A stretch of 43,399 nucleotides of DNA from a virus: IMG/VR virus record IMGVR_UViG_3300017963_000393, positions 1 to 43,399 of that record; one strand, 5' to 3'. The position numbers and the translations under genes were made by a program. Shown here piece after piece: positions 1 to 43,388 of the stretch. Below the pieces are notes generated by a model, which was not told the origin of the DNA, did no database searches, and was given only the letters and a program-made list of their open reading frames with translations. Position 1 is the stretch's first letter. Each line of letters opens with the position of its first letter.

Positions 1-246
1 AGCGAAAAACGCAATGTCAGCATCTGACATTAGGGCCGCCAATTGTTTTTGCAGATTGCGCGTGGTTTCCCAAGCTGCTGCGGCTTCGCTGGCGCGATTG
101 GCCATAGGGAATATGACCCAAATGCAGGGATCAAGTCCGAACGTGCCAAGGCTGAGTGTATAAGATGTTTTAGGCTGAAGTTGTTTTAACAGGGTTTCCA
201 TTTTCTCGGCATCTTTGGGTAGGTATGAAACTAATAGCATTTTCAT
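1..246 (-). CDS. small orphan protein, cut by the window edge
   Basis: The frame opens with ATG at 246, behind a GAGGGGGC ribosome-binding region, and stays open for 82 codons to base 1. The protein begins MKMLLVSYLP and has an alanine-rich helical stretch near its C-terminus. If the molecule is circular the next codons come from 43399 downward and read CGC TGA, giving an 83-residue protein. No family is recognised. It directly follows the 33-residue membrane protein gene (stop at 247-249) in a leftward operon of very small genes, the usual place for phage early host-takeover genes. Function unknown. Confidence 0.7.
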   Translation of the reverse strand, partial: MKMLLVSYLPKDAEKMETLLKQLQPKTSYTLSLGTFGLDPCIWVIFPMANRASEAAAAWETTRNLQKQLAALMSDADIAFFA

Positions 247-2688: not shown

Positions 2689-3429
2689 TTATCCTCTTTT
2701 GTAGCGATAGCCTGACCACACGGCTTTATTTAGTTCAGACTCGGTAAACCCAGGGCTGACGATGGGGGCGAGTATTTCGCGCGCCTCGGCTTGGGCTACG
2801 TTTCGTTCGGCGAGGTGAATAGCAAATCGAAAAGCTGTTCGATTTCGTCGCCCCTCGGGTATGCCCGTTGCCAGCTCGTTAGCCATCCAGGGAGGGATTT
2901 TGTCGGTGCCGGTTTGTATTGCGGTTTGTGTTGCAGTCCGGGGCCGAGGCGAAAGTACGGGTAGAGCGATTCCATCTTGGCGGTAGACAATTTTACGGCA
3001 GGGGAAATAGAGTCGTGCGCCGTCACGGCACGCGGGGTCGGCGGGAGTGGTTTTAATGAACCGTTGTAGGTTTTGTTCATAAAGGGAAACGTCCTCTATC
3101 CGTCGACGCCAGCGCATGATGAGTCGGAAGCGATGGTTTGCTGGCGTGTGTGATTTTGTAGTTCCTATAAGGGACCATGCCCCGATGCGGCGCACGTAGT
3201 CAATGGCGTCTTCTAATTGCCAATCATTGTCGACATCTAAGACGGCGAGATTGGTGCCGAGAAAGTTTTTTTTGCATCGCGTGCCACCGGCCCATACGAT
3301 GGGTGACCAGGGGCAGCGCGTTATGTGCTCGACGAGGGTGCCGTGCGTGATGTTCCACCCCTTGTGCAAGCGTGCGGGGTTTTGTTGTTGTGCGTCGAAA
3401 TGAATCGAGTATGTAAATGAGTTAGGCAT
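2689..3429 (-). CDS. AEP-type DNA primase
   Basis: 246 residues from ATG 3429 (MPNSFTYSIHF). An in-frame TTG at 3444 directly follows the nuclease stop and would add five residues; neither start has a good SD. Family features: AVLDVDND with the metal-binding DxD, TTKSHTPANHRFRLI with the His of the second motif, DGARLYFP, and a C-terminal helical part (GRRNRTAFRFAIHLAER...) resembling a PriCT domain. Archaeo-eukaryotic primases make primers and sometimes extend them. Its stop TAA is one base before the SF3 helicase ATG, and the pair looks like a two-gene version of bifunctional primase-helicases. Confidence 0.8.
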   Translation of the reverse strand: MPNSFTYSIHFDAQQQNPARLHKGWNITHGTLVEHITRCPWSPIVWAGGTRCKKNFLGTNLAVLDVDNDWQLEDAIDYVRRIGAWSLIGTTKSHTPANHRFRLIMRWRRRIEDVSLYEQNLQRFIKTTPADPACRDGARLYFPCRKIVYRQDGIALPVLSPRPRTATQTAIQTGTDKIPPWMANELATGIPEGRRNRTAFRFAIHLAERNVAQAEAREILAPIVSPGFTESELNKAVWSGYRYKRG

Positions 3430-8490: not shown

Positions 8491-9078
8491 ATGTTCGGTT
8501 TTGACGCAGATAAGAGAAAAAGATTGAAGGGCCTGGAGATGCAAATCATTGAAATCCAGGGTCAGAAACGAGAGATGGAAATTGAGCTGAAAAACCAGCA
8601 GCTCGATCTCGGCAACAAAAAGCGTGAGCAAGATGCTGTACTGGCTGAAGTAAAACACCAGTTCAAGCTAGACCTGCAAGAAAAGGAAGCGAATTTTGCG
8701 CGGGCGGAAAAAGAGTGGAAAGAAGATAAGGCACGGTTGGAGGCGCAGTTCATAGAGGATAAAGAACGCGCCATGGAAGACATTAAGAAACGTGCTGAGA
8801 TCGATCAAGTTGAGCTGAAAACGATGATGAAGCTGGAAGCTGAGCAAAGAATTGCCAAAGCTATGCTCGATGCGGAGAAGAAAGTCATCGTTAAGGATGC
8901 CGAGATTTCTGATCTGAAAAAGACTCACGCCGAGCAACTCGCGCAGCTAAAGTCCGACCTGGCTAAAGAGCACTACGATAACTTGCAGGCGACATGTGGA
9001 ACCCCCTTTTTTTTAAGCTGCGAGAAGAGCCTCTCTTGGCTACGTAAGACTATTCGGGGAAATCCTCGTGCTGCTTGA
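8491..9078 (+). CDS. long coiled-coil protein
   Basis: 195 residues, of which about 5-165 are a nearly continuous highly charged helix (many E, K, Q, R; few G or P), so a rod-like dimer is likely. It has a clear SD (AAAGGATAAT). The last 25 residues switch abruptly to TPFFLSCEKSLSWLRK after a run of five C and nine T (9002-9015). That homopolymer is a likely place for slippage or a sequence error, so the true C-terminus is uncertain. No family recognised. Confidence 0.7.
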   Translation: MFGFDADKRKRLKGLEMQIIEIQGQKREMEIELKNQQLDLGNKKREQDAVLAEVKHQFKLDLQEKEANFARAEKEWKEDKARLEAQFIEDKERAMEDIKKRAEIDQVELKTMMKLEAEQRIAKAMLDAEKKVIVKDAEISDLKKTHAEQLAQLKSDLAKEHYDNLQATCGTPFFLSCEKSLSWLRKTIRGNPRAA

Positions 9079-41290: not shown

Positions 41291-41402
41291 CTACCCATTT
41301 TTTTTAAATATAATTCGGTTGGTGATAGTCAAAATCCGTGCCAACTTTGCCCCACCCCCCCCCCTAAAAAAAAGGCCGTATTTCCGCTTTCTTAAACACC
41401 CG

Positions 41403-41421
41403 GGGTACAAAAAATGTACCC
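41403..41421. other. inverted repeat GGGTACA-N5-TGTACCC
   Basis: Perfect 7-bp arms around AAAAA, directly touching the perfect GTCTAA palindrome. The A-rich centre suggests a DNA operator or a stem-loop; it has no flanking T run in either direction. Confidence 0.5.
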
Positions 41422-41436
41422 GTCTAAGGATTAGAC
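41422..41436. promoter_or_regulatory. perfect copy of the palindromic site
   Basis: GTCTAAGGATTAGAC: arms GTCTAA and TTAGAC around GGA, the only perfect copy of a family also present at 641-655, 857-871, 42908-42922 and 43374-43388. Presumed operator. Confidence 0.6.
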
Positions 41437-41501
41437 AATTGTTAGGGGTAATGATAACGGCGAGTTACAGAATTGGAACAAATAACAAATTCCATGCCAA
41501 A

Positions 41502-41547
41502 GTGCCGTTTGTCCCGCAATCTAAGGCTTATGGGACAAATATGGCAC
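41502..41547. other. extended inverted repeat
   Basis: TTTGTCCC (41508-41515) and GGGACAAA (41532-41539) pair perfectly, and GTGCC (41502-41506) with GGCAC (41543-41547) extends the stem after a small internal loop. A 13-bp stem in total, with a 16-base loop, just before the Fur-like site. It could be an RNA structure or a protein site. Confidence 0.5.
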
Positions 41548-41556
41548 GAAATTTGG

Positions 41557-41571
41557 TGAGAATCATTCTCA
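41557..41571. promoter_or_regulatory. Fur-box-like palindrome
   Basis: TGAGAATCATTCTCA, a perfect 7-1-7 inverted repeat matching the Fur consensus TGATAATCATTATCA at 13 of 15 positions and identical in form to many bacterial Fur boxes. No clear promoter of either strand overlaps it, so what it would control is open. Confidence 0.55.
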
Positions 41572-41725
41572 TCCGCTTGTAAGTCTTTGATATTATTGAG
41601 TAAATGAGGCGCAGACCCCGAAGGGGTCACTTATTATTCGTTTTGCGCATAATACTATGTGGTGTCATAAAATGCACATTGTGCTTGGCATGGCATACAT
41701 AGAATGTATGTCTAAAGAATGATCA

Positions 41726-41746
41726 ACAGGTGTCAAATGCTTAAAC
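41726..41746 (-). repeat. TAAGCATTTGACACCTGT element, inverted copy
   Basis: On the minus strand it reads TTTAAGCATTTGACACCTGT, similar to GTCTAAGGATTTGACACCTG (641-660) and GTCTAGGCATTTTACACCTG (931-950). The three share a TTTgACACCTGT core that contains a consensus -35 (TTGACA) in two of them. Confidence 0.5.
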
Positions 41747-41757
41747 ACCTTAGACGC

Positions 41758-41795
41758 AAAAAAAGCCCCCAGGGTCCGGTTAAGGACCCCAGGGG
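41758..41795 (-). terminator. terminator of the leftward early operon
   Basis: On the minus strand a long hairpin (GGGTCC/GGACCC core extended by CCCC/GGGG, loop TTAACC) is followed by seven T. It lies 42 bp past the last early gene (stop at 41837), so it ends the operon that crosses the window junction. Confidence 0.85.
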
Positions 41796-41836
41796 TAACA
41801 CGGAGTTAACAGGGCCAGAGAGCACCTGCTGACTTG

Positions 41837-42264: not shown

Positions 42265-42801
42265 TTACCCCCTCATACAAGCGTAATGAGGCACGCCGTT
42301 ATCGCAGCCGGTGCAGCCAGTTTTTTGGCCAGAGCCAACGAAATAGGAGCCGCCGTACTGCCATGACGCGCCAACGTAATCAAGGTAACGCCCATCTTTT
42401 GCCCAAAGTCGATAGATCGGCAGGCTACCGTTATCGGGGCTTTCCAGGTCGACCAGAGTAAAATGAGAATAGTTATCAATAATATCCCAATAATGATCGA
42501 GCATCTGTTCACGTACAAACTTGGTATTACGTCGGTTGCCGTTGTCGAGATAGATCAGGCTGCGCAGGTATGCAATGCCTTTGGCTTGTTGCTCTGGCGT
42601 TAGGCGGTAACCGTCTGTTGGCATGATGTCGAAAAAGTCATCTGCCAGTTTTGAGATACGTTCATCGGCTGTTCGCATAACCCAATTCAAACGCAAAGAC
42701 TTATTTATCAGGCTGCGGAATCCGATCAGCTCACGTTCCTCGAATAGGCCCCGCTCCATGATAGAGCGGTATTTTTTGATGGTTCGGTTTGATGTCGGCA
42801 T
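42265..42801 (-). CDS. orphan early protein (178 aa)
   Basis: ATG 42801 (MPTSNRTIKKYRSIMERGLF), seven bases after ACACGGAG, directly behind leader copy 2. Helical first half (LRLNWVMRTADERISKLADD), a mid part with RLWAKDGRYLDYVGASWQYG, and a Cys-rich end (GCTGCDNGVPHYACMRG) with CxxC-H-C that could bind zinc. The largest gene of the early operon; no family recognised. Confidence 0.65.
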   Translation of the reverse strand: MPTSNRTIKKYRSIMERGLFEERELIGFRSLINKSLRLNWVMRTADERISKLADDFFDIMPTDGYRLTPEQQAKGIAYLRSLIYLDNGNRRNTKFVREQMLDHYWDIIDNYSHFTLVDLESPDNGSLPIYRLWAKDGRYLDYVGASWQYGGSYFVGSGQKTGCTGCDNGVPHYACMRG

Positions 42802-42922
42802 GTCTAAACTCCGTGTTAGGTGCTGCGTCAGTGCAGCTATCTAAGTTATTGCAGGGTGTGTGCCATCCGTGGCACCAGTGATATCGGTGGGTTGCGGTAC
42901 TTGGCATGTCTAAGGATTAGTC
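42802..42922 (-). promoter_or_regulatory. structured leader, copy 2
   Basis: Read leftward: CTAATCCTTAGACATGCCAA (its TAA is the stop of the upstream gene), hairpin 1 GTGCCA/TGGCAC (42860-42875), the conserved CCTGCAATAACTTAGATAGC, hairpin 2 GCTGC/GCAGC (42822-42837, loop ACUGAC), then CACCTAACACGGAG and ATG. The stem sequences differ from copy 3 but pair in the same way. Confidence 0.7.
42908..42922. promoter_or_regulatory. palindromic site GTCTAAGGATTAGTC
   Basis: One mismatch from the perfect palindrome at 41422-41436. It overlaps the stop codon of the 42917-43267 gene and begins leader copy 2. Confidence 0.5.
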
Positions 42923-43267
42923 ATCTGTATCGATGCTGTCTAATTCCTTTTTGACTTCACTGGCTGGGAAAATCCGGCCTTCTATGTCGACGATTTTCTC
43001 GGCTTTCATTTCGGCATCGATAAAATCATTCATTCCGCATCGATAGGCGACGGGATCATTTTTCTCTAGTACCTGAGCTGGCGTGCCTAAAAAAATATCA
43101 TCTAACCCTGAACCAGGAACTTTTACGTAAATCGCATCGTCACCATTCATGTCGATTAGATAATCCTGCCACAGGTCATCTGGCCATAGTTCTACGTGGC
43201 TCACGTTATCGAGTAACAATTCGCGGGTTGATTCATCCAGGCTTTCGATTTGATCTTGTAAACTCAT
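42917..43267 (-). CDS. acidic orphan early protein (116 aa)
   Basis: ATG 43267 (MSLQDQIESLDESTRELL), after ACGGAGCTTTATC; the longer frame from 43297 lies in the leader. Very acidic (many D, E), with an alpha/beta body (VELWPDDLWQDYLIDMNG, DAIYVKVPGSGLDDIFLG). Small, strongly acidic early proteins sometimes mimic DNA or block host nucleases; nothing specific is seen here. Behind leader copy 3. Confidence 0.65.
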   Translation of the reverse strand: MSLQDQIESLDESTRELLLDNVSHVELWPDDLWQDYLIDMNGDDAIYVKVPGSGLDDIFLGTPAQVLEKNDPVAYRCGMNDFIDAEMKAEKIVDIEGRIFPASEVKKELDSIDTDD

Positions 43268-43388
43268 GATAAAGCTCCGTGTTAGGTGCCGCTTCATTGC
43301 GGCTATCTAGGTTATTGCAGGTCTGGGGCCAAGTTCGGCCCCTGTGATTTTAAGGGGTTGCCAGAATTGGCATGTCTAAGGATTAGTC
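43268..43388 (-). promoter_or_regulatory. structured leader, copy 3
   Basis: Read leftward: CTAATCCTTAGACATGCCAA, hairpin 1 GGGGCC/GGCCCC (43325-43342), CCTGCAATAACCTAGATAGC, hairpin 2 GCCGC/GCGGC (43288-43303, loop AAUGAA), then CACCTAACACGGAG. The short frame after its ATG would give only MPILATP. Confidence 0.7.
43374..43388. promoter_or_regulatory. palindromic site GTCTAAGGATTAGTC
   Basis: Same sequence as 42908-42922, at the outer edge of leader copy 3 and next to the window end. Confidence 0.5.

Follow-up and report, generated by a model that had tools for sequence, protein, structure and literature searches.

The IMG/VR virus record IMGVR_UViG_3300017963_000393, whose 43,399 bases make up the window analysed here, carries three repeated leaders on its minus strand, and we have good confidence in the prediction that each is an enhancer-dependent sigma-54 promoter joined to a short 5' untranslated region that opens with a stem-loop. 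The best account we can give is that this triplicated promoter either is a copy taken from a host regulon or matches one, and that the predicted 5' stem-loop is the sole RNA structure to be expected in the promoter's own transcript.

Three leaders and their hairpins

The repeated leaders are real and lie exactly where a previous, sequence-only reading of this DNA had put them. Exact copies of CTTAGACATGCCAA are found at 634-647, 42901-42914 and 43367-43380, of CCTGCAATAAC at 567-577, 42845-42855 and 43311-43321 and of the Shine-Dalgarno sequence ACACGGAG at 533-540, 42809-42816 and 43275-43282, all on the minus strand, the last of these preceding start codons at 524-526, 42799-42801 and 43265-43267 in copies 1, 2 and 3 respectively. 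The genes served, also on the minus strand and with no assigned function, encode a small acidic protein (365-526), a protein of 178 aa (42265-42801) and an acidic protein of about 116 aa (42917-43267). The copies are about 77% alike and their differences are constrained, with promoter and stems retained. A covariance model built from the three recovered only these in the window (E 2e-21 to 2e-16; next 0.055), and it found the leader in none of the searched loci of the terminase relatives of this phage (55 viral relatives, 41-72% identical), those of the 72% lineage (L031/L032) coming without their early regions. Exact-pattern relatives of the leader were absent from 2.9 million viral contigs, and scans of viral contigs with looser patterns (linker plus Shine-Dalgarno, block plus linker, linker plus hairpin-2 loop) returned coding or chance matches only. 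Rfam likewise gave no gathering-level match in the window, in line with the earlier statement that no described phage leader of this form was known. A conserved leader peptide starting from the ATG in the block was considered and dropped, as the three frames run to 7, 58 and 91 codons and neither length nor frame is conserved.

In homologous alignment columns hairpin 1 has a 6-bp stem closing a 4-nt loop in all three copies, and hairpin 2 a stem of 4-5 bp closing a 6-nt loop. The stems and loops of hairpin 2 are as previously given, namely CCCC-AAUGAC-GGGG in copy 1 (545-558), GCUGC-ACUGAC-GCAGC in copy 2 (42822-42837) and GCCGC-AAUGAA-GCGGC in copy 3 (43288-43303), all on the minus strand. 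For hairpin 1, on the same strand, the pair GTGCCA/TGGCAC had been assigned to two copies; it holds for copy 2 (GUGCCA-CGGA-UGGCAC, 42860-42875), and for copy 1 it had relied on a shifted 3' arm, the homologous columns giving GUGCCA/UGGUAU around a 4-nt loop (582-597). Copy 3 has GGGCCG-AACU-UGGCCC (43326-43341).

The claim that the stems change while pairing is kept is borne out by compensating changes among the three copies, with 10 of 11 pairs kept in copy 1 and 11 of 11 in each of copies 2 and 3; of the 11 pairs, three differ at both positions and three at a single position, and pairing is lost in one cell. RNAalifold scored the alignment better than 500 of 500 column shuffles (z = -4.7), and when an equal number of changes was placed at random, pairing was kept this well in 0.0002-0.007 of trials for both hairpins jointly, the corresponding range for a single hairpin being only 0.007-0.23. 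Folded as single sequences, copy 3 alone is unusually stable (z -3.3, with -0.1 and -0.9 for the other two). Pairing has probably been maintained in the leaders, three copies being insufficient for a claim of the R-scape type. An RNase III processing site, which needs a long duplex (about 20 bp), was rejected given stems of only 4-7 bp, as were terminators for want of a U-tract.

A palindrome shared with Bdellovibrionota genomes

The constant block of the leaders, CTTAGACATGCC, is half of a palindrome, TGTCTAAnnnTTAGACA; in each leader it makes up the right-hand side of a 15-bp palindrome whose sequence is GACTAATCCTTAGAC or GTCAAATCCTTAGAC and which is present on the minus strand at 641-655, 42908-42922 and 43374-43388. 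Copies 2 and 3 carry GACTAATCCTTAGAC and match the pattern GWCTAAnnnTTAGWC exactly, and copy 1 carries GTCAAATCCTTAGAC (17-mer TGTCAAATCCTTAGACA) with one mismatch. Scanning the window with this pattern returned four exact sites, all noncoding, versus 0.01 expected. The two exact sites outside the leaders, at 857-871, upstream of the operon headed by copy 1, and at 41422-41436 (GTCTAAGGATTAGAC), upstream of the late operon, lie in noncoding DNA and lack the two hairpins of the leaders, and this occurrence of the palindrome without them pointed to a DNA-binding site. Scored with a matrix made solely from 34 host sites, six window sites reach 16.6-22.9 against a best of 13.4 in 20 shuffled windows; these scores include 20.3 for copy 1, 20.8 for 857-871, 22.9 for 41422-41436, the highest in the window, and 19.1 for a weaker palindrome, GGTGTCAAATGCTTAAACACC, at 41732-41746, which has two mismatches to the 21-bp form. 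No sigma-54 motif scoring at least 7 was found within 170 nt of the 857-871 palindrome.

Three lines of evidence lead us to infer Bdellovibrionota as the likely host phylum, among them the relatives of the terminase and the helicase. Relatives of the terminase, besides those in the 55 viral contigs, are found in three bacterial MAG contigs (two Bdellovibrionales, one Acidobacteria), and among named phages the helicase matches Bdellovibrio phage phi1422 best, at 40%. Megablast of the first 20 kb of the window against GenBank phages gave no match, close relatives sought through the helicase, the primase and the 178-aa protein were not found, and by its PHROGs content the phage is not of the T4 type. 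The gene cut at position 1 (window 1-243) would reach a stop 6 nt past the 43399 join, so the record may represent a whole genome in circularly permuted form. At 1128-1360, adjoining the primase and helicase genes, copies of GGACGGC/TTGGAC in opposite orientation flank an AT-rich stretch (1229-1258), a candidate replication origin, and a direct repeat, GGGGGTRGGGTATCGCACTCAATTTTC, 96% identical between 1008-1034 and 1083-1109, lies in noncoding DNA before copy 1.

In two Bdellovibrionales genomes GTCTAAnnnTTAGAC is present in 4 and 5 copies versus 1 and 1 for its reversed control, and its flanks in host genomes extend to TGTCTAAnnnTTAGACA. Of 55 genomes of the order, 29 contain this longer form versus 1 for its reversed control, and of 192 genomes sampled across the phylum Bdellovibrionota 93 do, versus 7; the two genome samples overlap. 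Across 149 genomes of the Acidobacteria phylum both TGTCTAAnnnTTAGACA and its control were absent, hence that comparison says little. The leader sites of the window are one mismatch from the host 17-mer. Of 46 host sites examined, 43 fall outside large ORFs, the usual distance to a start downstream being 15-150 nt. Several host sites are followed by TGGCAC...TTGCT. A sigma-54 motif (GG-N10-GC required, score of at least 9 of 11) was found within 170 nt of 45 of the 57 sites (79%) in the order of genome G025 versus 1.4% of control windows, which are mostly coding; at a score of at least 10 the figures are 47% and 0.04%, and for all 112 unique host sites 53% versus 1.7%. With a sigma-54 -24/-12 promoter near 45 of these 57 sites and in only 1.4% of control windows, we regard the palindrome as the probable upstream activating sequence (UAS) for an enhancer-binding protein of the host; this, together with its occurrence in host genomes, argues against the view of the whole unit as one structured RNA.

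Distances from UAS to promoter in the host genomes cluster at a period of about 11 bp (Rayleigh p about 6e-4 for the best of ten periods, uncorrected). In some other Bdellovibrionota genomes (e.g. G112) the sigma-54 motif is missing at most sites; the link may be lineage-specific, or promoters may be more divergent there. By a crude rule, signal-like N-termini are found in 51 of 84 genes downstream of host sites versus 22 of 100. The sigma-54 activator domain PF00158 is absent from the phage and has 23 matches in each of two Bdellovibrionales genomes. Bdellovibrionota loci L127-L161 and L172-L251 have TGTCTAAnnnTTAGACA with a sigma-54 promoter upstream of diverse genes, a candidate regulon. 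We know of no described enhancer that matches TGTCTAAnnnTTAGACA. In a limited literature check this regulon was apparently not described, and a survey of sigma-54 regulons published in 2025 makes no mention of Bdellovibrio (PMC12316311).

Predicted sigma-54 promoters and their transcript

The constant linker had been taken as selected RNA; together with the 3' arm of hairpin 1 it forms instead a predicted sigma-54 promoter. The invariant TGG of that arm and the CTGCA of the linker make GG-N10-GC in all three leaders, the stretches being TGGTATGGCACCTGCA, TGGCACACACCCTGCA and TGGCCCCAGACCTGCA in copies 1, 2 and 3. The predicted promoters lie on the minus strand at 572-587 (TGGtatggcaccTGCA, 8 of 11), 42850-42865 (10 of 11, the top consensus score in the window) and 43316-43331 (9 of 11), at 52, 41 and 41 nt after the UAS as counted from the 17-bp palindrome, and the 11-nt insertion in copy 1 amounts to one helical turn. 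All three copies have the GG-N10-GC spacing and match most of the TGGCAC...TTGCW context, with -12 boxes that read CTGCA, not TTGCW, and as the copies are homologous this promoter match counts roughly once. The window sites also have the arrangement of a host regulon site, an intergenic palindrome with a sigma-54 promoter about 37-104 nt downstream, the leader distances of 41 and 52 falling among the shortest in the host range and deviating somewhat from the helical phase seen in hosts. The Shine-Dalgarno sequence ACACGGAG recurs at 356-363, ahead of an ORF of 33 codons that starts near 344 and has neither UAS nor promoter nor hairpins.

We also ranked 86762 positions with an independent sigma-54 matrix made from the 28 ChIP-supported Salmonella promoters printed in PMC3844500. 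The three top-ranked window positions are all noncoding. Copy 2, whose TGGCACACACCCTGCAAT resembles norV TGGCACACTAGCTGCAAT, ranks 2 (17.8 versus 16.8 for the best in 30 shuffles) and copy 1 ranks 7 of 86762; copy 3 is weak (5.3, rank 35). Rank 1 falls to a candidate promoter at 41482-41499 (minus strand, TGGCATGGAATTTGTTAT) and rank 3 to another in the same noncoding region at 41326-41343 (minus strand, TGGCACGGATTTTGACTA, -12 of TTGA not TTGC), which stands about 77 nt after the 41422 UAS and is directed at the late genes (first start 40879). This suggests that sigma-54 may control the late genes too.

The noncoding stretch 41300-41760, upstream of the late operon, thus contains the positions ranked first and third by the sigma-54 matrix along with two palindromes of the UAS type. 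Beside the 41422 palindrome lies a noncoding imperfect inverted repeat, GTGCC..TTTGTCCC / GGGACAAA..GGCAC (41497-41548), and at 41758-41817 (minus strand) a sub-threshold Rfam match to NsiR1 (29.1 bits, gathering 39) covers the terminator that ends the early operon.

Among relative phages, G016 has a UAS with two mismatches, TGGCCCACGCTTTGCT 60 nt further on and a possible start codon; this pair, like the UAS and promoter before the late operon, hints that the arrangement may be used more widely. A scan for UAS plus promoter in 405 kb of relative phage loci gave 3 hits versus 1, 1 and 3 for decoys, no excess, and palindromes in relative phages were dropped as a shared signal, the cases of G016 and L123 being individually suggestive and collectively not above decoys. 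Two relatives have in common an intergenic element, TAGAACTTT..CA..GTGTAAT.CTTAGTCGGT, which is conserved and separates divergent genes upstream of the terminase (L053 about 8520-8570, L123 about 395-445).

From these elements we infer activation, start sites and a role for the stem-loop as follows. A host enhancer-binding protein (bEBP) would occupy TGTCTAAnnnTTAGACA and host RNA polymerase with sigma-54 would be held closed on TGG-N9-(C)TGCA, until the looping activator opens the promoter complex using ATP hydrolysis. Placing the start 12 nt after the -12 C puts it at 561, 42839 and 43305 (minus strand) in copies 1, 2 and 3, so that RNA would start 2-3 nt upstream of hairpin 2, which begins at +4 in copy 1 and at +3 in copies 2 and 3 and becomes the predicted 5'-terminal stem-loop, and hairpin 1, whose 3' arm overlaps the -24 element in all three copies, would lie upstream of the start. 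The mRNA would run from a stem-loop, GCNGC-A.UGA.-GCNGC (CCCC/GGGG in copy 1), through ACACGGAG to the start codon; the stem-loop would probably shield a short mRNA from decay that depends on the 5' end and leave the Shine-Dalgarno sequence open. Several small, probably early, phage genes would in this way be run by a host regulatory programme instead of the phage's own.

If the promoter reading is right, the linker is constant because of promoter recognition and not as a selected single-stranded RNA linker, and the promoter's own transcript carries hairpin 2 and not hairpin 1. The promoter does not account for the kept pairing of hairpin 1, which may be due in part to chance or play a role in read-through RNA.

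Competing explanations and known systems

The pairing kept through three two-sided changes, with its z of -4.7, would also suit a structured RNA leader in which hairpin 1, linker and hairpin 2 are made whole from an upstream promoter and control translation, stability or processing, and since copies 2 and 3 are internal to an operon, RNA reading through them would hold both hairpins. We nevertheless find this reading improbable, since block and linker are accounted for as UAS and -12 element, support per hairpin is weak, two copies fold ordinarily as single sequences and the covariance-model search gave no relatives in which to look for covariation. Even less credible is the palindrome as the operator of a phage or host repressor overlapping sigma-70 promoters: the three leaders have no sigma-70-like promoter, the host sites have no -10 or -35 enrichment outside the palindrome and very strong sigma-54 enrichment, and no CI-like repressor was found among the proteins scanned, even though palindromes stand at several regulatory regions and the 857 site overlaps TTGACT-N17-TAGATT (plus strand) and ATCACA-N16-AATAAT (minus strand), sigma-70-like matches of 9 of 12. 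Three further candidates were discarded: a sigma-70 promoter with the block as -35, whose spacing and -10 do not fit and whose pattern host sites lack; a class II activator at -41 of a sigma-70 promoter, given up after the sigma-54 promoter was found; and a LexA/SOS box, as the downstream genes have no SOS theme.

The units may instead be recombination linkers, repeated between genes for duplicating or shuffling early gene cassettes, with the expression signals as passengers. A fourth copy of the 11-mer TTAGACATGCC at 42795-42808, across the start codon of the 42265-42801 gene, suggests duplication through this 11-mer, the phage encodes RecE/RecT genes, and two relatives have repeated Shine-Dalgarno leaders of their own, unrelated in sequence, at early genes starting at 1906, 2475 and 3053 (minus strand; G007, 3 genes) and at 3369, 3667, 4740 and 5836 (plus strand; G001, 4 genes). 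Against this, the likeness between the copies is only about 77%, and their differences are constrained, sparing promoter and stems; as the primary explanation it appears unlikely, and it is compatible with the enhancer-dependent promoter, not opposed to it.

Phage transcription almost always relies on sigma-70 promoters or a phage-encoded polymerase. In a 2010 paper listed in PMC4177764, Arbiol et al. reportedly described promoter early stem-loops (PeSLs) of T4-type phages, which share with the leaders the repetition of promoter and stem-loop units between early genes, possibly helping gene shuffling; PeSLs have sigma-70 early promoters where the leaders have sigma-54 and an enhancer, and the sequences are unrelated. 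The leaders, having no sigma-70 promoter and belonging to a phage that is not T4-type, are not members of that class.

Sigma-54 promoters, bEBPs and looping are textbook matter (PMC7057263), and the leaders share with host promoters of the NtrC, PspF or NorR type the GG-N10-GC core, a predicted palindromic enhancer upstream, spacing in helical steps and AAA+ activators encoded by the likely hosts. They differ in being phage-borne and in a predicted UAS 41-52 nt from the -24 element, closer than the usually quoted 70-150 bp (PMC3844500). PMC5053324 calls the use of sigma-54 by phages 'rare' but 'not unprecedented' and gives as example Pseudomonas phage YuA, which depends on host sigma-54 as is predicted here from sequence; phage and host are unrelated to those treated here, and the text consulted describes neither a host-shared UAS nor 5' stem-loops. 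With the 5'-terminal stem-loops that stabilise ompA and T7 gene 10 mRNAs (PMC2254391) the leaders would share a short, putatively stable stem-loop within about 3 nt of the 5' end, upstream of the Shine-Dalgarno sequence, with the difference that here the start site is predicted only.

A copied host enhancer in a phage of a predator appears to be new. We put forward tentatively, as possible though somewhat doubtful, that a lineage of phages infecting predatory bacteria has acquired copies of the enhancer and promoter of a host sigma-54 regulon that spans the phylum, and uses them to time early and late genes to the developmental state of the host. On this reading the host regulon would be rich in genes for exported proteins and hence plausibly tied to the predatory cycle. 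If true, expression of the phage would be tied to a host signal, possibly the predator's switch between attack and growth. The data on TGTCTAAnnnTTAGACA and its sigma-54 promoters give a concrete candidate regulon for Bdellovibrionota.
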